The notes under the pieces were generated by a model that saw only the letters and a list, made by a program, of their open reading frames with translations, did not search any database and was not told the origin of the DNA. From Halichondria panicea (Eukaryota; Porifera; Demospongiae; Suberitida; Halichondriidae), in contig NC_087377.1 in assembly GCF_963675165.1 (NCBI RefSeq), forward strand, positions 3,316,978-3,380,977: a DNA stretch of 64,000 nt, read 5' to 3'. Shown here piece by piece: positions 11,559 through 30,800 of this stretch. Numbering within the stretch: position 1 is the first letter of the stretch; every line of letters begins with the position of its first letter. The position numbers were made by a program, and so were the translations under genes.

Positions 11559-14500
11559 ATGAAGCTTCTTATAGCTGTGGCTCTGTTGGTTGTTGGACTC
11601 TCCCCTAGCCCAGGCTTCAGTCAGTTTGGTGATGGCTCTGGACAGACCACTGAGGCACTAACTGATGCAACAACTCAGAAACCAACTGAGGCAACAACTG
11701 AATCAGATAGTAAGTCACTTACTGAAGTGCATGAGATTAATGAATTTTTATGAGCCACTTAATAATTATCTACCCCTATACTGAATTATAGTCCTAATCC
11801 CCACAAGTTGGTTGTGACGCACGCTTTGCGCTTAGCGATGATGCTCATCAAAAGCAGTATAGATATGATATATGCATGTGCATGTGGCATTTGTACAATC
11901 ACAGAAGTTAATTTGTTGATATCAGATTTCAGAGATCTATAAGCATCATCGATATAATTATTACAACCTTCTATGCAACACTGTAGAGAAATAATTTATT
12001 AGATCTATCATAGCTACTGTATAGTTGAATCACTATTCAATTGCCAATGAGAAGTTTTATCTCTGAGTTTGCATGATAATAGCTTCGCTTAAAATGATCT
12101 TGGCATCCCTCATAATTATGCCTCGATGTGCATGCGCAAGCTAGGTATACGGTAGTGTGTCTGTGTGCAGGGGCGTATAGCCAGGGGGGGTGCTAGGGGT
12201 GCTCGAGCACCCCCAACCAGCCTGAATCAAGTACAAATCACAGAGAAATGTATCTGATTATCCAGCTGAGCACCCTTTTCTTCCAAATCTTGCTGCAGTT
12301 AGCTATATAGCTGATAGGCAAGCAAAATGAGTCAGTCTCTACACTGTCAGCTAATGCAAGTAAGAGGCTTCTATAGTCATGTTTTCATTCGTTGGTTCTC
12401 GAGTTATGCTTCACCGGCCTTCGAAGAGAAAAGAAGACCTGCTACTGACTGCTTGCGCATGCGCAAAATTACTGTATTTTTTCCATAAAATTAATACTGA
12501 ATTTATATATCAGAAAAAATATCCTATACATGCACAGAGCTAGCTAGCTATAGAGACAGAGCTGTAGGTTGTATACAGCTATTTTCTTTCTGATATAGAG
12601 TCGGTAACAGTAGTATAGTAGACTTTCACCAAAGTTAGTGTTAGATGGGCGTGGCCTGTCCATTGCATTATAGGCTCTTGTCATGCAGCTTTCACTCCGT
12701 TTAGATGCCAGATGATTGTCATCCACATGCAGGCTGTGAGTCTTTTGTTAATTAACATATAGCAGGCTAAGGGTAGCTATCAAAGGAATGCTATCGGATG
12801 GGCTAGAAACCTTCAATCGAACTTTCTATCTACTTTCTATCTACTTCCTTCAATCCACTTCTGTTTGTCGTTTGTTTTACTTCCAAAGCCTCCGGGATAC
12901 CGGGGTGAGATTTAGCGCATGCGCATGCAAGCAGTCGATATCAGGCCCACTTCCTTGATGAAGTGTAGCCTGGGATCGAGGCTAGTCAAAACCTGACTAA
13001 CCTGACTGGTGGCTACGGTCCTGTATTGGTAGCTGCAAGAGTGAGAAGAGAGCTGCAAGGCTCTGCTCATACAGCCATTAATTTTAGACTTGGACTTTAG
13101 GCATAAATCGTTTTTAACAACAATCATGAGTCATCATTACCCACTCTTTAAGTTTTGGCCTGCATGCAGCAAAATCAAATAATGCAAAGATTATCGTATC
13201 AAAGCTAGTAGTAGCTTTTAGTTTATGTTATGTAGCACAGCACCTGTGGTGCTTTTAGTGCTTCACGGTCTTGCCTGGAAAATTCCAGTCAATTCGTGAT
13301 CCAACACTCGGGAAACCGCAGAACTCTTAGGGCTTGGCATGCAAGCCTAGCTTATTACATAGTGCTTAAATAAAAACAGACACAGCGTAGTCTGTAGTCT
13401 AGTGCGTGGGCTAACCACAAAGCTATACAACATAATTATGAAGTCAGGACTCAGTAGCTTCCTAAAGCCACAAAACTAACCAATTCTTAGAATGCGGATC
13501 ATGTAGAGTTGACTCATGATTCACAGTAGACTAAAACACTAAAATTACTACCCGTCTATAATAGTACATTGAGATATATAATTATAACACATCTAGCAAC
13601 ACTTTGTTCAGTTGGTACTGCTATATGAATATCTATAACTCTGTCAGTCAAATTTTGTCTGAAATGATATATGCACTGCCTGAATGTTCAGTGCTTTTTC
13701 CTTTATTAATAGGAGTTGACAACGTCCTAATCAATTACAGCTATGAAAATGTCTACATATTCATTTTCTTCGGAAATTCATTTGACAAAGACTTCTACCA
13801 GCTGTTTAATCATGATACACCGTGCTTTTTGAATCAACTTGTTTTCAGAAAAACAAACACAAATGAAATCTTCCAAACGGAATACATGGGTAGTTGCAAG
13901 TACTTCGATGGCTTTGTCATTCGGATCACTATGAATCCTAGAGATCATCTTAAGCTAATTTTGGACGAGTTTATTGACACCAACTCTACTACACCCTTGG
14001 GCTTGGAAATGTACACTGCAGATATGCTTGGAGCTCCGTTCAATCTTCGAATAGAACCAGAAAACGCCATTGAGTGTGACGTGAGATTGTCCTTGTCTTC
14101 ATATGTAGGGATTATTGACACTGATTATTGGATCGATGAGGGGATTCTTTTGATTCATATCTATTCTTTCATTGATGTTGCGACTGTCAATCCCAGCAAG
14201 CTATCGCTCTCTCGCAATAACTATCGGGATGCAAGCAACACTGTTAACATTATGGGTGGGGAAATATTGAACCGGTCGCCTGGCTTAACATCATCTGTGG
14301 CTATTAGACTGACTGCTAGTGATCAAGATCTTCTTACGAGCAAAGGAATATGCACTGGTGGTAATAAGAGTTTCAATTACGACTGTTACCTTAGCATAAA
14401 ATCGGGATTTGCTGCTGCGTATTTTGGAGCAGAGGTTTATCCTACTCGCTATAAAGGTTATACTGTCAATAACATCCAGAGAGCTCCTACAGGTGAACAG

Positions 14501-17677: not shown

Positions 17678-18890
17678 CCAAACAGTTGCTGAATAATCTT
17701 CGACCAGCTCCTGTAACTTAACATTGTGTTTTCCCTCTTCACATGCATACTCAACAATATCTTTGGTTCGAATTTATTCCAACTTTCCTCAAGGTAGAAT
17801 CTATAGGTTCTCTTTTCCCGTAATTTCAGAAAATTACTATATAGCTGCTTGAACAAAGCTATAAATAATTATACTGTTAATGCAATAATAGTGAACTTAC
17901 CTCAGTCAGTGGGTAAGTACATCTATATATTGAGGGGCGATCCTCTAGCTTGTAAGATCCCAGCTTAGACATAACACTCCCTTAAGTATACGCTTTGTTT
18001 TGGACCATTCCTTTTGAAAAGCAGTGGTTTTGTCTTTGGACAGATGTTGAATCTAAAGATTTGCTTGCTCCATGCTTGGGTATAATAGCTCAAATACTAG
18101 CCTGAGTCTACAGTGCTTGATTTGTGACGCATATTCTTTAGAATAACTCGACTCCATGAACTGAACCCTGCATGAAAAGAGTACATAATTTACTTCTAGT
18201 GCCTTTTTTATATATTGATGCGATAATTAACAACATCAACTTGCATTGTCGTTGGAAAAATGCAGTATAGATAGCTTACACCAATAATTGGAAGTGATGA
18301 GACATGTATGTTGATCTGCTGATGTATATAAAAATTATACATAATTATGTGCGAAACCATACTGACAGGAAAGTGTCCCTAAAGCTCAAATCTACTGACG
18401 GACATTCACAAGTCCCCACAGAGCTCAACAAGAGTTATTACAATTCTCCAACGTCCCATAGTAGCGAGTGAGTACAGAGACTTATACGTATACAGTCTAT
18501 CTGCACGACAATTGTTTTGCAGCAACTTTTTAGCCGAGTTTTTGCATTTATATCGGATGGGTGAACAACTAGCTATTAACTTTTTCGACCTATAATTATA
18601 GCGCTCCATTAGAGAAAGATTAGTCTAGTGACGAGGCTAAGCTATATCATCAAGAAATGAAGCACTGCATGTCACACATTGCTTATACATGTATTAAAGC
18701 CCATTAATTATCTATAACAGATAAATGGTTTTATAATGAGCAAACTATCTAGTTGCTTTCCCTCAAGATTGCTGCAAAGGGGGTTCATTGAAATTCTCAT
18801 AATACCCCCTTTGTATATAGATCTACTCCCACGTTTACCACAGGTACTTAACAGCTCTATTAACTCAGACGTATGTTTCTCTTGCATGCA

Positions 18891-21800
18891 ATGAAGCTTC
18901 TTATAGCTGTGGCTCTGTTGGTTGTTGGACTCTCTCCTTGCCCAGGCTTCAGTCAGACCAGTGAGGGCTCTGGACAGACCACTGAGGTAACAACTGAGGC
19001 ACTAACTGAGGCACCAACTGGTGCAACAACTGATGGTAAGTCACTTACTGAAGTGCATGCATGAGATTAATGAAGACTACCTAAAAATGTATAACGCTTA
19101 TGGCAATCATGCATTGCTCATCAAAAGCAGTATATCTGGTATTATTTTGTGTAATCATGGAAATTTGTTGACATCAGATTTCAGAGATTTACAAGGACCA
19201 TATCTATGGGGTGCCGTTTGTCTCAAAACTAATAAACAGTCAATGTTTACCAAAGAGGTCGATGTTTACCAAGGAGGTCGATGTTTAGCAACCAAGTTGA
19301 TGTTTAGCAACCAGGTCGATGTTTAGCAAAGCTACCAGATCACACAATGTGCAGATATTAGGGCGTGGTTTCTTGTGATACGCCTTAATTAGAATTGTGC
19401 TAGAGATGAATGCCGCCCCTACTGCCTAATTATTGCCAGTGCTATTTTCATCTTCAGAATCTACTATATAAGTAAACCGCTGTTTGTAACAGCAGTAGTA
19501 AGTAAGAGCAATGGCTATAACATCTTGCAACTAGCTAGCACATTAAGTATCACAAGAAACCACGCCCTAATATCTGCATTTTGTGTGACATTGCCAGCAA
19601 TTGCCATTGTATTTTGGACACTATTGTTCTAGCATCCTGTCTAAATATTTGTTCTATTTATATGAAAATTCAAATATTACTCAATCATTTTAACTACTGC
19701 GGAAATAAATGCTACTATAGACTATTGTAGTGCGTGCGCAAGATCTTCGCTGAACTAGCTACGTTCACTGCACTGGTGCTGGTGAGTAATATTATTGTTT
19801 ACCTGTTGGTTGAGCTCATGTAGACTTCTGTGGTAGATTCTATCCTGTGGCAGATCTCTCTAGTCACTGTTACAGGCCGGTACAAGTAATAACAAAATAC
19901 TGAGCATGCAGTACTGCCAGCTCAGTATTTTGTTATTACTTTTACCGGCCTGTAACAGTGACTAGAGAGATCTACCACAGTAAATAATTATATAGAACAG
20001 TACAGTATAGTAGTGAGTTCTTAGTCATATTCTTCTCAGTCCTGTTCTAGTTACAACACTTTTACTAAATTAAATTTAACTTTCTTTCTTGGCTCTTTGT
20101 TGTCCGCTTCTTTTGTGCTTTCTTCTTTTGTATTTTTGGCTCTAAATCCTAGCAACGTGTAGTCTGGGTTTAAAACTTCTGACACCTGGACATCGTATGT
20201 TTGGCTGAGCCTCACAACTTTCTTTAAATAGTTCTGGGCCTTTTTCTGAGACCCCATCGGAAAATAATGTGTTCCAGTATCATCTGCTGTTGTAAAATAA
20301 AATTGTTTTCCCTCAGTTCCAATCTTTACTAGCGACCCAATAGGAAAGGAGTTCCTGTGGTGTCTGATCTCTCGTAAGTCGGAGTCGATGTAGTACGGGT
20401 ACGGGTGGAAGTGGCAGCAATTTCCCATCTCAATTCTTTCTCTGTTCTTTTTTGTATAGTAATTTACTGATTCACATGACAGTAATAGCATGCAATCAAT
20501 GGTAGTAAAGTGTGTCAAATGAATAGAGATAAAATCTTTATGGTCACTAATTATTAATCTTCCAGCAGACCTGTTCATGCAGATCGACCTGTTATGGACT
20601 CGTCAAAGAGGCAACGACCTGAGAAAGGATACTATTCCTACCTCCATAATATAAGCTCGGCTGACATGGACTTATCTAGCATGCGGGAAGCACGAGATGT
20701 GAGAACCACTCTGAGCTGTAAGTCTGATGACAGTCTGCCAGAAGGGGTCTTCCTTGTTGAGAGGATAATTCATCATCGACTAACTAAGGTACGTAACATT
20801 TTATGATATATAGCCCTATACGATTGATTCTATTTCTAGGGGAAAACGGAGTATTTGGTAAAGTGGGCTGGTTACTCATTGGAACAGTCTTCATGGGTCG
20901 CTAAGGAAGATGTGACTGTCTCTACTATCCAGTAAGATTATTAAGTATGGCATGGCAGTGCACTGTGTATTACTATATATCTGCACATTTCCCCCCTTTC
21001 AGATCATACAATACACCACAAGCACCACATACCGAGCTTATAAGCGACGCAACAAGAAGATTTGTTCTGTCCATTCAATGTAGTTTAAATTTAGGTACTG
21101 TAAAATCCTGTAATTTAACTATAGATTTCCGGCTAGATGTATTTCGTTACCTATTTAAAGATCGAGGAACCCAAATGACCCGCGGAAAGCTCCAACTTCA
21201 ACAAACTGATTTTAACGATGAATATTTTATAGGTAGTTGGTATATTTTGTATGATAGATATGGCAATGGCTGCACAGTAGATTTTCCTATTGTAGTATGT
21301 CCTAGAATTAAGTATGGACCGAAAACATATAGAAATAGCAATGGTGAAATGTTAGAGTCACCTAGACTACTATCTGAAATTGTATGTGTAAATCTGGTGA
21401 AAAAACGTTGTTGATCATTTTTAATTGTTAATTGTTAATGCATGCATGGCCCAACCTGAGCAGCCAATACGCACTATGTGACTCATAACTAACTGCTTCA
21501 GGCCAATTCTCTACCATAATGCTTTTAATGACTCTCAAACAAATGGCTGGGTCAACACGCATCCCGACTTACAGCTAACCTTGTCAGCCTTCCATTAGAG
21601 AGCACGGATTTGCCTACAATTATACATAGACTATGTCATAGTTAAAGCTAGCACCAGATTTAAACATGAACGAATGAATGTAAGACATAATTAGTCACAT
21701 AGTCATTCAACATTAAGAGAAATGGTTTCTAAGCTAGGACGGTCATGAGCATGATAAGAAAGACATTCCTTAATTACATGGGCAAGTTCAGTTGACTTAA

Positions 21801-24800
21801 TTACAATGGAGTTCATCTTCTTCATTATTCTACCTAATGAGTATATATCGCTCTGTGTGCTCTGTAAAACAAGCCCATCACGGAGGTCTGGAGCTACTTG
21901 AGTGTGTTCTTTTATGTAAATAACTTTCTGTTCCTCGGTCAGGCAGTACTTCTTAGCATGCTTTTCTTTACATGCCTTTCCAAAATCCACAATACATGGC
22001 CGGATACATTCTAACAAAGTAGTCCCTAATACTACGTTGTCTACTTTAAGATCATTGTGAAGAATACTCAGCTTGTGCATGTATGATAGACCATCACAAA
22101 TTTGGATCAGTATTTGCATCCATGTCTTAGGGTTTAATTTAATTTCGTTAGTCGAATACAAGGCAGAATATAATGAAACTTGTTGCTGCTTCACGCTTAC
22201 ATTAGACATTACTAAAGCTCTCCTGGTGGAACAAATACCAAAACAGTGTGGTATATAAGGGCTGGAATTTAATGTAAGTAATATACTGGCTTCATGCCTA
22301 ATCGATTCGATTGAGGAGTCGGAAGTAAATGTTTTGACACAGACGTCAAAACACTCTTTAAAAATCATACGAGAGCATGTTCCAAACCGACCATTTCCTA
22401 TATGAACATCACCACCCCCATCTGCTAAACATTTCTCACTTATCTCTGGAACTACAGTAACTCCTCGCATAATATCAGCATTCGTACACATTCTTGGAGT
22501 TGCCTTGGGTAGACTGATTGCACTCGTCTTCATGGCTGCTGTTAGTAACTTTAGTGGTCGTTGGTGACTGCAGGATGTTCCCAGAGTTCCTGTCCGTAAT
22601 TGCTTAGCTCGATACACGTTGAGTTCCCTGTATGAACAATATTATTTACTGGCTGTTAATCAGCAACTTACAGTTTATAATCTATTGCCTTCTTCTTCCA
22701 ATTCTGAACATTTTTCTCGGCACATTCAAGGCTCTTCTTCTCCATACACAGCTGCTTGCCAATTTTGTCAACTCTAGCTTTTCGATTGAGCCTCTTGAGC
22801 TTGGATCTTGAGAATGTCTCTTTCTGCTGGTCAGCCATTTTGTAATAAGTCTAAGAGAACCAGAGGTCGCAAAATACCCGCCATAATGCATCTGAGAAGT
22901 GTTATCATGCTATTGAATGAGTACTGTGGTTAATTTAGTGGGTGATAACACCCGCAGCCTATTCACCCACCCACTCATATTGACATGGCTAATTAATTTT
23001 GTTACATAACAGCTCAAGGGACCTTTTGTTCCATTATCCCGGGCCTCCTAGCTATGGCAGTAAACAAGCAGTCCAGAAGAGCAGAGAGCCTGTCCATCAC
23101 CATCTCAAATTCAGCAAAGAAGTACTCTGACTTCAGCCACACAGAACCACAAGTACAGCCAAACTTCTCTCTCTCTATTCCTATCGAGTTGCTGCATCAT
23201 TGGTACATGAACAAGAAGGCAGAAGAGACATTCATTAGCTTAGTTAATAGCATGGTAACAATAGTTAAACTAGCACAAAGCAATCGTCTGGAGAAAAGGC
23301 TTGCAGAACAAGCTAGCAAGGTAGCAAGAAGGATACGGGGGCTAAAAGGAAGAAGGAGGTATGCCGTACTTGCTGGAGAATACAACCTCTTCGTGCTTGA
23401 TGGAGAAGCAGAATCGTATTCTGAAATTGAGCAGCAACTATCCACTGAATCTCCACAGCCAACAACAATCCCCGAAACAAGTAGACCTACCACAGCACAC
23501 ATCAACAAAGGCAAAAAAGTTCACGAGGTATCACCACGACAGGTAAAACGAAAGCTAGCACACTGTAAGAGCTCTGCAGAGCAAGCGCTTTGGTTTTGTG
23601 AATCATTCGGTCTTCAGCCAGAATCTTTAGAGCTACGCAAACAGACAGGATCTCCCATCAAATTCAATTTTTTATCTAGCCCATCTCACAAGCCACAACA
23701 TCAAACGCCAGCTCTTTCACCAAACGATTCTGCGAGGGTACAGCAAGCTCTTTATGTACTTGACAGGTTTGCTGTGAGTGATGAAGCTTATCATGAATTG
23801 AGCGTCGCATCTGATTTACCACCACTGTACCGAATCAAGGATGCTCGCCTCTCAATTAACAACTCTCTCGACATCCGACATCTCGAAGGTCCTTATCCTG
23901 GTGCTTATAGACCACCGAAAGCTGCAATCCAGGAAGAGCTAGCTAAGATCGTAAGTAAAGAAGAAATTATACACTATTATTATGGATTATTATTTTAGGT
24001 TCATTCAGGGAAAGCTATCACCCAACCAGTAAAAGTAAAACTCAGTGGTGACGGAGCCAGATTCACAAGATCATCCAATATCATACTTCTCTCATTTGCA
24101 TTTCCAGAAATTCAAGACAATGTTTTATCAGGCATGGGTAAGCTTAACAATAAAAATATTAAACGAGAAAGTGGTGAAAATATTTTTATATTGACATTCA
24201 TACAGGCAATCATACTTTTGCTGGCCTAAAAGCCGAAGAGTCGTATGAAACAATTAGTTCAGGACTATCTGAGGTATTGAAGGAGTTGAACGACATCATT
24301 TCACACCCACTACTCACTGTTGATGAAACAGAGTACCGCCTTGAGTTTTTCCTGGGTAGTGATTACAAGGTGAGAATGTATAGTTAATTACTGACTATAA
24401 AAATTGCATTATTAGTTTCTTTTACTGAGTATGGGCCTCAACAAAGCAACCTCTATGTACGCTTGTGTCTGGTGTACCATTAAGAAGGATGAAAGGTATA
24501 TCTATAATTATTATGCTTAAACCTAGCTTCCCCATTTGCCGCTATATAGGTGGGATATGTCAAAGGATAGGGCTGACTACACCGTAACAAATGCAAGAAC
24601 ATTGAGTTCCCTACAAGCAAAAGGCGCACTTCCCAGCAGTAAACCAGCAAGTGTACGACTAGGATCAATTACAACACCACTACTGAACATAGAGCCAGAC
24701 CATATAATACCCGATGAGCTACACCTACTCCTACGTATAGCTGACGTTTTAACAAGAAATCTCATTCTAGAGATAGTGGCATCTGCTAAACAAGACAGAC

Positions 24801-27800
24801 AAGGAAACGCACATATACTCACTCACCTACAAACACTACAGACGATCGTTAAAGACTGTGGTATCACGTTCAGGGTATGGGAAGCAAGGGGTCCAGATGG
24901 CAAAGCTTCTGGACATTACGAATGGACATCACTGCAGGGGAACGACACCAAAAAGTTTCTGGAACGTCTCCCAGTGAGGTTTGCTGACCTACTGAAGGAA
25001 GAAATTCAAGCTAAAATGGCCCAACTTTGGACAGTGAGTACTAATTAAATTTCCCTTCGCATTTTACAAACATAATTATTTATATGGTCTGGCTCTATAG
25101 GAATTTCTCTCTTTGTATAAGATGGTTTCTAGCTGGACTCCACCTCCCAGTGAAGTGGTTGAGCAAAAGGTATAGTGTTAGTTTACTAGTAGGGAGAACC
25201 ATTGTATCTAATTTACTATAATCTATCATGATAGGCGAAAGACTGGATAAGGCTTTTCTTGAGCTTGAAGCACAAGTGTCAAGGGTTTCAGGAAAAGAAT
25301 ATTACGCCCTATATGCACACACTGGTCTTTCACTTCCCTTACTTTATTTCAAAATACGGAAATGTCAAGATGTTTAGTGGACAAGGTGAGTTCGAGTGTA
25401 AAGAGATAACATTTTAATCACCTTTTTCTCTAGGGGTGGAGAAAAATAATGATGACGCCAAGAGACACTACTTCTCCAGTAATCTGCATGACCCAGTGGG
25501 GGAGGTTCTGAAAGCTGAAGCGAGAATAGACGAGACATCACAATTTAAGCGAAAGAAACGAAAGTACATACGAAAAACTCCATTAGATTTAGTAGACATG
25601 AACAAACAGCCACGACTTGACTCTGAATCATGATTAATTCTACCCAACATAATAATATAGTATACTATATATCCTGATAGATTGTAGACATTTACTATCT
25701 TCAAGTAAATGACTGCTAGCCTATACTTACTTGCAGCCATATACACTCACTTTACATTGCTGGTACATTGCGATTAATGGGGAATTCCCCAAATTAGTGG
25801 CTCTACGCAGCTCTTGGGTATGTGTAGATAATGCGATACGTCATTGATAATTGTGGATTTTTTGACAAAACTGGACACATTTTGGAACCGCTTAGTCCAC
25901 TTTATATCGAGCAGCAGCCGCTTTAAGCAGCAGAGTAGGCCGTATATTTTTGCTGGCAATCGGCAAAAATGAAAATATATGTGTAAGAATGCCGCAAATC
26001 AAACACAAAAATACAAAATAATCAAATTTTACAATACAATACACAAGACAAGCGCTGAAACATTGATCAACAAAAGCAGTTAGGGAACTTATACAAGCTG
26101 GCTGGCTAGCTTCTTGTGGGATTCCAAGGTTAGCTAAGGTGTATTTCTTCTTCTTTGTATCGGCAAATCAACTGAAAGTAGCTCCCTACAAGGGAAAAAG
26201 GGAAGCATAGCCTTTGGTCTCATAAGAACACATATAAAATCATACCGTAATATACAGAAAATTACTAACTGATTTACTGACATATTTTAATTGGTGTCCA
26301 GTCATTGCTGGCAATGGCTGGTAGCTTTGCTAAACATCGATCTGGTTGCATGCTAAACATCGACCTGGTTGCTAAACATCGACCTGGTTGCTAAACATCG
26401 ATCTGGTCTCTAAATATCGATCTGGTTGCTAAACATCGATCTAGTCTGCAAAGATCTGGTTGCTAAACATCGATCTGGTTGCTAAACATCGATCTGATAA
26501 GCATAAATTTGTCTCTAAACATCGATCTGGTAGGTAAACATCGACCTCGTTGGTAAACATCGACTCTTTATTAGTTTTGAGACAAACGGCACCCCATACA
26601 TATCGATACAATTACTACAATTGCAAAATTTTATACGGTAAACAGTGTGCTCATGAATATTCATTATAATGATTTTTGTGAAACTATTGAAGCACACATG
26701 ATAAGGTTATCATTCTGTATGAAAAGGCTTCAAAACATTTCAGTGGAAGCTTTGAGCAATCGTTACGTTTACTAGAAACAACACAAACTATAATTATAGT
26801 ATACATTTTAAACTTCCAAAAAAACACTTCTAGCTCTGTGTTCTTGCTCTTTTATACTTCTCCATTCCGGAGGCCGACTCTAAATTTTTTTTTCTTTCCA
26901 GGCCAAGAAACTCTCACAAGATAATAATATGTATATAGACTATAACGGCGGTCAGAGCTAAGGAAAACAACCTCTTGCGAGCTTTTAGTATAACCTTTTT
27001 TCGAAATATATCATCTTCGAGTCGCCCTGCATAATAGTGAAGCTATAGTATAGATTGTATACCTAAGCTATCTAGTCTATTCGAGCCATGAAATGACTAC
27101 TGCGTTTCAGCTGGACTTCCAGCTCATTCTAGCTGCTCACGATCACTAGCTCATGAATAATTAATGAGCAAATGGTTTACCGTAGCCTTAAAGCTCCACT
27201 TTTAATTTTCTACTATAATTATATATATGGAATCCGTTTTTAAAGTTCTCTGAGTTTGCATGATAGCTTTGTTTAAATTTACTTGGCATCCCTCGTAATT
27301 ATTTCAGCACTTCAATATACAGTGTTGTAACATGCAGTCTTACACGGCTGATTTCCCGATCAATTCATGATCCAACACTCGGGAAAACGCAGAATTCTTA
27401 TGAGGGCCTGGCATGCAAGCCTAGCTTATTACACAGTGCATTAATTAAAAACAGACACAGCATAGTCTGTAGTCTAGTGCGTGGGCTAACCACAAAGCTA
27501 TACAACATGAATGGACCAAGTAGCTTCTTAAAGCCACAAAACAAACCAATTCTTAGAATGCAGATCATGTGCAGAATTGACTCATGATTTACAATTATAG
27601 TCATCATTATGCCTCGATGCGCATGCGCAAGCGAGGTATACGGTAGTGTGGTTGTGTGTTTGTGTGTGTGTCTGTGTATCTGTGTGTCTGTGTGTGTGTG
27701 TGTAGACTGCTACAGCTGCTCAACGATCAATGGCTTCTATAGTCATGGATTTTAATTCGTGGATTTGCAAAGTAATGCTTCGTTCTCGAATTATGCCTAG

Positions 27801-30800
27801 TTTTGCTTATACTTGGAATGCCATTGCAGCCTTTTCAGAAGAGTCAGTGCGTAGCAAAACTTGTTCACCAAATGTTGCTACTCTACTTAGTAGTTAGCTC
27901 TGCACCTGAATGCTAGCTATTGGTAACTGCAAGTGAGAAGAGGGCTACAAGGCTCTGCTGATGTAGACATCAATTTTAGACTTGAACTTTCGGCATCGAT
28001 CGTTTTTAAACAACAATTGTGGTCGATCATTACCCACTCTTCGAGTTTCCCTGTGATTCTGGATTCTGCCTGAATTAATTATGCAAAAATGTTCATCATG
28101 TTATGTGTGTATATAGTAGCTTTGGCACCTCCGCGGTGCTTTCATTTATGGTCAGTGATGACTGCCAACCAATTTGGCAGAAAATATGGTCCTACCGTAA
28201 CAAAATTGGCCCTTATAATTGTATTAGAGGCCATTAGGAATTCATTGAGAAATTCTCTGAGCCTCTTCCGTCTACTGGCGCTATTGTTCAGTATATATAA
28301 TTATGCCTCGGTGCGCATGCACAAGCGAGGTATACACTATGGTAGTGTGTTTGTGTGTCTGTGTGTAGACTGCTATACATGCAGCTGCTCAAGGAAGTGC
28401 AAGTAAGAATTTCTATATAGGCTTCTAGTCATGTTTACTAGGATTTGTATTCGTGAATTTTCAAAATAATGCTTTGTTCTCGAGTTATGCCTACTTTTGC
28501 CTACTTGGAATGCTATTGCAGCCTTTTCAGAAGAGTGCAAAACTTGTCCATCAGGCATGGAGTGTTGCTACTCTACTTAGTAGTTAGCTCTGCACTAGAG
28601 CGCTATAGCTATTAATTGGTAGCTGCAAGAGTGAGAATAAAGCTGCAAGGCTGATGTAGCCATTCATTTTAGATGGCATTGATCGTTTTTTTAACAATAA
28701 TAATGGTCGATCATTACCCACTCGTTGAGTTTCTCTGTGATTCTGCATGCAGCAATTATAAAAATGTTCATCATGATAATTATAAATTAATTTGTGTATA
28801 AAAGCTATTGCTATAATAGCTAGTAGCTTTATGTTATGTAGCTTTGACACCTCCACCGAGGCATCAGCACCCGCGGTGCTTTCATTTAATTATGTGTTTG
28901 ATATAAAATGTATATGAGGCATCAGCACCCGCGATGCTTTCATTTAATTATGTGTTTGATATAAAATGTATATGCACTGCTATGAATTATGCATGTTCGG
29001 TGCTCTTTCTTTTATTAATAGGATCCCTTAGAATTGACAGCGTCCTTATCGATTACAGCTATGAGAATGTCTACATATTCATTTTCATACTTGACAACCA
29101 GCTGTTTGATCGTGATGCACCGTGCTTTTTGAACCAACTTGTTTTCAGAAATACAGACACAAATGAAATCTTCCAATCAGAATACCTGGGTAGTTGCAAT
29201 TACTTCGATGGCTTTGTCATTCGGATCACTATGAATCCTAGAGATCATCTCAAGCTAATTTTGGACGAGTTTATTGACACTAACTCTACTACGCCCTTGG
29301 GTTTGGAAATGTACACTGCAGATATGCTTGGAGCTCCGTTCCACCTTCAAATAGAACCAGATGACGCTGTTAAGTGTAACGTGACATTGAACTTGTATTC
29401 CGATGTAAGGATAAGTGACATTGATTATTGGATCGATGAGGGGATTCTTTTGATTCATTTCTATACGTTCATTGATGTTGCGACTGTCAATGCTAGCAAG
29501 CTATCATCACTCTCTCGCTCTTCTTATTACCCTCGGGATACAAACAAAACTGTTAACATTAATGGTGGTGAAATACTGAACCAATCGCCTGGCTTAACAT
29601 CATCTGTGGCCATTAAACTGACTTCTAGTGATCACAATCTTCTTGCAAGCAAAGGAATATGCACTAGTACTGGTAGTAGGAGATTCATTTACGACTGTTA
29701 CCTTGGCATAGAATCGGGATTTGCTGCTGCGTATTATGGAGCAGAATTCAATGGTGGTTATCGTGTCTACGGTCATTCTGTCTATAATATTCGAAGAGCT
29801 GCCACAGGTGAACAGAATGTGTTATAGTAGGTGCACTTTTTATTTGATGATAATTATAACAATCTCACTATAAACATTTACTCTGCAGATTCTGAGGCAG
29901 TGACTATGTCTATTCAGCTGGAGTATGTCGGTGGATTGACTCTGAACTTAACCCTCGGTTTAGGTCAGCCATTCAGTGTTCGCCGGTCATATTTGGCTAT
30001 GGACGAGAGGATTATCAGGTCAGGCAAGAGAAAATGTTTAGATTAGCATTGTTTAATTCCAGAACATGCGTGCTTACACAACACCCTCTCCCTCCCCCTC
30101 CATGCATGCACAGTGTGACGTGTACTAGCAGGGACACTAATGAACATGTGAACCCCATGCTGGAGATTGACAATGGTGCAGTGCCTATTCCACCTAACTA
30201 CATCCAGAATGATTGGCCCAGCTTTACCACCTTGAATGCACCCAGGGGGCTAGCTGAGTCTGGTTTACAAGGTTACTACACGTGCAAGACAGAGGGAAAC
30301 ACTTTCCTCAGTCCTCACCTTCTGCATTCCAGTAAGTACTGTAAAACGTACTATAATCATGCCTCGGTGCGCATGCATGCGCAAGCTAGGTATACGGTAG
30401 TGTGTTTGTGTGAGTGTGCATGTGTGTGTGTGCAGGGGCGTAAAGCAGGAATTTTAGGAAGGGGGGGGGCTGAGCTGAAAGGGTGCAAAGCACCAGAAAG
30501 TGATAATGTAGCTGATCAGTTACTTTGCTGGCTCTTCATCAGTACTCAGGCTGGCAGTACTGGAGCTTGGCAAGCTGGCACTAGAGCTTGGCAAGTCAAG
30601 TTGGCACTAGATCTTGGCCTTGAGAAGTAGTGGTCCAGTTTCTGTGACATAGTTGCTGCTCTCAATCAACCTCTGTGGTAGATTATTAATCAGTTGCACA
30701 GTGCATTGCCATGTGCAAGAAATAGTTTATAGCCACACCTGCTTCAATTAATAATTATTTAACTGCATGCTAAATTAAAGAAGCTAGCTAGCTAGCTTAG

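Follow-up and report, generated by a model that had tools for sequence, protein, structure and literature searches.

A probable CMCT-clade DNA transposon carrying four genes, nested in an IS3EU-like element of the sponge Halichondria panicea

We analysed a 64,000-nucleotide stretch of the Halichondria panicea genome (assembly GCF_963675165.1, contig NC_087377.1, positions 3,316,978 to 3,380,977; hereafter the window, in whose numbering positions are given) that holds genes for a transposase, a protein kinase, a chromodomain protein and an MGNCC protein. An earlier note on this DNA had assigned all four to a single transposon at 19205-26598. Our analysis points instead to two nested elements: the segment 19589-26316 is probably a DNA transposon of the CMCT clade (CACTA-Mirage-Chapaev-Transib/RAG1) that is complete, moves by cut and paste and was active recently; it is inserted in an older, IS3EU-like miniature inverted-repeat transposable element (MITE). 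Comparisons within the genome show the boundaries of the element, 16 complete copies with four genes each and joining to the target without duplication, and they show an old association of transposase, kinase and chromodomain genes.

Boundaries, copies and age of the element

The mobile element measures 6,728 bp (19589-26316, plus strand), its limits being those at which alignments of the genome copies end. When window positions 18001-28000 were compared with copies L001-L006, the long match started between 19577 and 19589 in all six and stopped between 26316 and 26318 in five, that to L005 breaking off at 26051. The element is bounded by a left terminal inverted repeat, CATTGCCAGCAAT (19589-19601, plus strand), and a right one, ATTGCTGGCAATG (26304-26316, minus strand), each identical in 16/16 complete copies. 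Across the 19 copies inspected letter by letter, the left end occurs in 17 and the right end in 16; the left-end exceptions are L020, with altered letters, and L009, where the end was not reached. In L009, another copy, which contains an insert, the left end lacks the first 9 query letters and the right end is present; the stretch fetched for this copy stops short of both.

An exact genome search with the 13-bp end found 43 places (a reversed control pattern gave 21), 32 of which are accounted for by the 16 complete copies, two ends to each; three more lie in damaged or interrupted copies, and eight single matches were taken as chance. Short non-autonomous copies with paired true ends were not found among the 43. 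The 16 complete copies, in a genome of 131 Mb, have the same ends and differing flanks. Identity among five of them is 99.97-100%, and between these five and the window copy it is 99.72-99.73% (gaps not counted); the near-identity of the five indicates recent movement. Judged by its sequence, the four-gene element is young, present in many copies and recently active.

The copies at C12:4254125-4272523 and C17:2197160-2214434 contain separate nested inserts of about 11-12 kb, whose edges we read, in the short interval between the kinase and transposase starts. The old copies L008, L039, L040, L041 and L042 have many small deletions, with the remaining blocks mostly 80-100% identical, as if the genome loses DNA in small steps. 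Near the left end of the window element lies a near-perfect palindrome of 152 bp (19837-19988), also present in L001-L006 and partly in L009; its 76-nt arms are 91% matched and would fold as RNA at about -109 kcal/mol. It could be a small-RNA source or an old insertion.

The surrounding MITE

The inverted ends and the 6-bp duplication described in the earlier note are indeed present, at the borders of an outer unit. This unit (19205-26598) has the left end TATGGGGTGCC and the right end GGCACCCCATA, which form inverted arms of 99 nt with 88% complementarity, and CATATC flanks it on both sides (19199-19204 and 26599-26604, plus strand). Its left part, beginning TATGG (19205-19588, plus strand), and its right part, ending CCATA (26317-26598, plus strand), together make a MITE of about 0.66 kb without the insertion. 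Of seven loci fetched from elsewhere in the genome, three (L032-L034) are MITEs with these ends and 6-bp duplications, 529, 611 and 657 bp long. At L035 (C3:3362150-3366000) outer-type ends stand 3,543 bp apart with about 3 kb of extra DNA between them, without a 6-bp duplication and without a frame of more than 110 amino acids in the extra DNA; at the remaining three of the seven loci, L036-L038, the end pair was not found. A likely paralogous empty site of the outer unit, of the kind that the earlier note had described, lies at window positions 11842-11966; its alignment is weak (66.7%) yet shows a gap at the junction.

According to PMC12730594, IS3EU elements have TAYGG..CCRTA ends, terminal inverted repeats of over 30 bp and 6-bp duplications. 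The outer unit agrees on each count, with TATGG...CCATA termini, 99-nt arms and a 6-bp duplication in the window and at L032-L034. These features are confined to the outer MITE and do not bound the four-gene element. Since the L032-L034 MITEs are too short for four genes, the outer ends are not those of the gene block, and since the gene block ends at 19589 and 26316 in its other copies, the earlier note merged two nested elements. The outer unit is best described as a non-autonomous IS3EU-like MITE, older than the four-gene element and unrelated to it.

Insertion without target duplication

Insertion of the four-gene element makes no target duplication, as seen from the flanks of the copies and from two exactly seamless empty sites. 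For the C8 copy, an exact empty site exists at a paralogous place on C8, which agrees with the joined flanks at 140/140 bases; these flanks also cross the junction gap-free in 4/4 fetched repeat loci (L048-L051). A second exact empty site is provided by the copy at C1:249674-256398, where a local repeat runs unchanged across the junction. In the window, the joined MITE halves align gap-free at the junction in 7/7 MITE loci, which have a T there against the G of the joined halves. The joined flanks of L006 align (86%, small gaps) without duplication to a repeat in L001, and those of L028 are like a window repeat save for 2 bp close to the junction.

We tallied matches between left and right flanks at 16 sites, taking expected values from mismatched flank pairs. 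Matches of 1 bp occurred at five sites (2.93 expected) and of 3 bp at two (0.33 expected). Lengths of 5, 7 and 9 bp were each seen at one site, and a match of 2, 4, 6, 8 or 10 bp was seen at no site. Going by the flank letters, the GT microsatellite of L018 is the source of the 5-, 7- and 9-bp matches, and L018 and L002 are the two sites that match over 3 bp. At position -4 of the left flank, G occurs in 12 sites and A in four (G: p=3.3e-5, the best of 240 tests); a mirror of this preference was not seen on the right flank of the 16 sites, nor was an AAATTT target seen in the target tallies.

The four genes

Gene models were built on splice signals, and all four have open frames with GT-AG introns at the splice sites, as the earlier note had described. 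The MGNCC gene (20051-20428, minus strand) has one exon and encodes 125 amino acids. The chromodomain gene (20594-21414, plus strand; exons 20594-20788, 20840-20931 and 21003-21414) encodes 232 amino acids and matches PF00385 (E=1.7e-12). Its product has F, W and Y, by eye, at the positions of the HP1 methyl-lysine cage. The protein kinase gene (21703-22838, minus strand; exons 22838-22672 and 22627-21703) encodes 363 amino acids, matches PF00069 (E=1.6e-21) and retains the catalytic aspartate in an HND motif together with DFG. The transposase gene (23054-25633, plus strand) encodes 727 amino acids in eight exons (23054-23950, 23999-24137, 24206-24369, 24416-24495, 24550-25033, 25101-25169, 25235-25385 and 25434-25633), with D317, D398, C417, C420, H485, H639, H644 and E664 as its marked residues. 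In the Pfam scan neither the MGNCC protein nor the transposase had a match above cut-off, and the single-sequence structure model of the MGNCC protein was poor (predicted local distance difference test, 44) and was not interpreted.

Protein matches place all four genes inside the true ends in 16/16 complete copies, so that a mobile element carries the kinase, chromodomain and MGNCC genes as passengers, as had been proposed. Of six complete copies read from end to end, five keep each of the four frames open and one, L003, has a broken kinase frame; by protein matches over the complete copies, the MGNCC frame is open in 15/16 and broken in one. The broken kinases show that a copy of the element can exist without an intact kinase of its own, as would be expected if other copies supplied the kinase or if it were dispensable.

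Age of the gene association

The decayed relative L007, on C13, carries pieces of the chromodomain, kinase and transposase genes in the same order and on the same strands as in the window, which upholds the earlier view of cargo kept together with the transposase. Over all aligned codons, identity to the window genes is 38% for the chromodomain gene (184/232 codons; some of its columns are probably misaligned intron), 54% for the kinase (207/363) and 49% for the transposase (489/727). The proportion of nonsynonymous differences (pN) is 0.44, 0.31 and 0.34 and that of synonymous differences (pS), near saturation, is 0.77, 0.80 and 0.83, respectively. When only blocks with a local identity of at least 35% were counted, a filter that favours low and equal pN, identity was 55-59% and pN 0.27-0.28 in all three genes (76, 171 and 337 codons). 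Equal constraint on the three genes, which we had considered, holds only in these blocks and was dropped after the unfiltered recount; pN lies below pS in each gene with or without the filter. In L007, an MGNCC match was not found, nor was a clear inverted pair of ends. The comparison shows that the association of transposase, kinase and chromodomain genes is old.

Class of the transposase

A 392-residue core of the transposase matched 13 PDB sequences at E<=10, of which 11 are RAG1, with RAG1 on top (best E 0.32). RAG1 was also among two weak Pfam matches of the core (E 0.19), and the reversed core matched one unrelated protein. The weight of the comparison lies in the position of the aligned stretches, which pair D398, C417 and C420 with D708, C727 and C730 of RAG1, and H639, H644 and E664 with H937, H942 and E962; the spacing was read from the alignment. 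The resulting pattern, D-x18-CxxC ... HxxxxH-x19-E-xx-N, is spaced identically to RAG1 and occurred in 0 of 50,000 shuffles.

Marks of the CMCT clade listed in PMC12730594 are a C(2)C motif, an H(3-4)H motif, 5'-CA..TG-3' termini in most members and 2-5-bp target duplications. In the window transposase, C(2)C follows the second catalytic aspartate (D398-x18-C417-x2-C420), H(4)H precedes the last catalytic glutamate (H639-x4-H644-x19-E664-x2-N), and the termini read CATTG...CAATG in 16/16 complete copies. The RAG1 motif pattern and the CA..TG ends together lead us to place the transposase in the CMCT clade. RAG ends are of a heptamer type, and Transib and RAG make 5-bp duplications; the element has neither, its ends being CATTGCC. 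A PHIS-type, recombinase or Rep match was not found in the Pfam scan, and a search for relatives of the core in viral and genome contig collections gave 4 and 21 pattern matches, respectively, none of them confirmed.

With three marks of the clade present and the duplication absent, we call the element a putative new CMCT-like lineage, one that would work like a CMCT transposon without being a member of a named family. The earlier statement that no named superfamily with this gene set was known is thus qualified: by motif and termini the transposase fits the CMCT/RAG1 clade, and by target duplication it does not.

Related kinases beside other transposons

The nearest other kinases in the genome are about 33% identical to that of the element. 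The less decayed of these share an N-terminal coil and the motifs HND(L/I)K, DFGKA and HIAPE, at which aligned host kinases differ. In a tree of 13 sequences and 236 columns, which left out five of 18 (L054, L058, L067, L068 and L070), all seven host kinases split from the six transposon kinases, the support being 100%. Host kinase genes that are distantly related to the transposon kinase form large groups at C9:0.18-2.4 Mb and C3:0.1-3.2 Mb.

Beside the related kinases stands a different transposase, which has a sub-threshold DUF4218 match in 2/3 scanned pieces (E=0.0013 and 0.024) and EnSpm/Plavaka-like motifs. Twelve kinase loci score at least 50 bits, counting both members of one 99.99% duplicate pair; a match to this transposase lies within 3 kb of six, within 10 kb of eight and within 20 kb of ten, and in all ten the kinase is tail-to-tail with the transposase. 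At 45-50 bits, none of three loci lies within 10 kb of such a match and one lies within 20 kb; below 45 bits, one of 64 lies within 10 kb. A weak further kinase match at C9:3149180 runs counter to the tail-to-tail pattern: it shares its strand with a transposase match 1.5 kb away. Kinase and transposase are head-to-head in the window element, so the arrangements differ. That kinases of one family accompany at least two types of transposase suggests control of these elements, or of their silencing, by phosphorylation.

Proposed mechanism and rival explanations

We propose that the transposase, with a catalytic triad of D317, D398 and E664 and RAG1-like C417/C420 and H639/H644, would pair the CATTGCC ends, excise the element and join the ends at directly opposite positions on the two target strands. 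Such joins would leave no gap, so that no target letters would be copied. The chromatin-reading finger of RAG2 tethers its complex; by analogy, the chromodomain protein might bind methylated histone tails and steer or protect the insertion complex, or tether it to marked chromatin. Substrates of the kinase might be the transposase or a host factor for silencing or DNA damage, and the MGNCC protein may be an adaptor, perhaps lipid-anchored. We further put forward, as a doubtful but not far-fetched extension, that the element represents a new lineage of the CMCT clade, its RAG1-type transposase being partnered by a chromodomain protein in the place of RAG2 and by a dedicated kinase, and joining the ends without a stagger. 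In this extension the kinase family would have moved between several CMCT transposons, in the way that TET/JBP genes do between those of fungi, and would control the transposase or host silencing.

Several observations weigh against the reading as a CMCT transposon with working cargo. The whole 727-residue transposase had no PDB match at E<=10, and neither did its C-terminal piece alone. The similarity of the core to RAG1 is non-significant by both E-values, with aligned stretches of 2.0 bits (first) and 8.9 bits (second), and another transposase, L055, drew five ROR-gamma matches near 0.6 and no RAG1; in view of the reversed-core, C-terminal-piece and L055 results, the RAG1 E-values alone prove nothing. 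The motif pattern was framed after the alignment had been inspected. The 2-5-bp duplications of the clade are absent, as the element makes none, and the 1- and 3-bp flank matches exceed expectation. By protein matches, the kinase frame is broken in 5/16 complete copies, four of them with an identical break.

The last of these points would be accounted for if the kinase, chromodomain and MGNCC genes were functionless neutral hitchhikers captured once, as would the one broken MGNCC frame, the lack of an MGNCC match in L007 and the greater change of the chromodomain protein than of kinase and transposase. We consider this unlikely, if slightly less so since the unfiltered recount weakened the case for equally little change in all three genes: pN stays far under pS in each of them whichever filter is used, and related kinases accompany a second transposase type at 10/12 loci within 20 kb, always tail-to-tail. 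Less probable again is movement by another chemistry, be it single-strand, rolling-circle or by a site-specific recombinase. This would explain the seamless insertion and the one-sided preference at -4, and it sits poorly with the perfect 13-bp inverted ends, the DDE-type RAG1 spacing of the transposase and the Pfam scan, which gave no recombinase or Rep match; moreover, Spy, a DDE transposon group, likewise lacks duplications (PMC4482050).

The reading of the earlier note, in which the four genes belong to a single transposon bounded by TATGGGGTGCC ends and 6-bp duplications, is highly improbable. The outer ends and CATATC do flank the gene block in the window, yet the other complete copies stop at 19589/26316 amid unrelated flanks, which already refutes it. 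The outer ends belong to a MITE: their measured pairs are too short for genes (529-657 bp, 3/7 loci) or, in L035, enclose no long frame, and the window MITE halves rejoin gap-free in 7/7 MITE loci. Spread by segmental duplication has next to no likelihood: it would yield nearly identical copies such as those observed, but 16/16 complete copies share exact ends while their flanks differ, and there are two exact empty sites.

Comparison with known systems

No DNA transposon that combines an ordinary protein kinase with a chromodomain was found by title or abstract start among the literature matches listed, a set in which subscription journals are mostly missing. A parallel for the kinase comes from rust fungi, where an IS3EU element carries an alpha-kinase gene opposite its transposase (PMC12730594). 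The window likewise has a kinase opposite a DNA transposase, and its outer MITE has IS3EU-type ends and 6-bp duplications; the kinase of the window element is an ordinary protein kinase (PF00069), however, and the transposases differ. Closer at hand are the EnSpm/Plavaka-like transposons of the same genome (L052-L055 and L066-L070), whose kinases belong to the same family as the window kinase. In these the kinase is tail-to-tail with a DUF4218-type transposase, unlike the head-to-head pair of the window element, and a chromodomain or MGNCC match to the window proteins was not found in the L052-L055 stretches.

Insertion without target duplication is shared with Spy, a DDE transposon of the PHIS group which has an AAATTT target and a PHIS transposase (PMC4482050). 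The window element differs in having only a purine at -4 and a C(2)C/H(4)H transposase. The CMCT clade, comprising EnSpm/CACTA, Mirage, Chapaev, Transib, Plavaka, ESTA and Lanisha together with RAG1 (PMC12730594), resembles it in the C(2)C and H(4)H motifs between the second aspartate and the last glutamate, in a further DxxH histidine and in the 5'-CA..TG-3' ends. The clade is reported to make 2-5-bp duplications, whereas the window element makes none; it also carries kinase, chromodomain and MGNCC cargo, and no significant whole-protein similarity was found between its transposase and those of the clade.

Within the clade, there is a likeness to RAG1/Transib and RAG-like transposases, through the identical D-x18-CxxC and HxxxxH-x19-E-xx-N spacing; set against this are the non-significant E-values, the CATTGCC ends and the lack of a RAG2-like gene among the four. 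RAG1 descends from CMCT-clade transposases, and RAG2 adds chromatin reading, which the chromatin-reader gene beside the window transposase recalls. If the element is indeed an active RAG1 relative whose chromodomain lies in a gene of its own and which makes no target duplication, it would allow tests of how partners are recruited and of how CMCT enzymes set the stagger of insertion.

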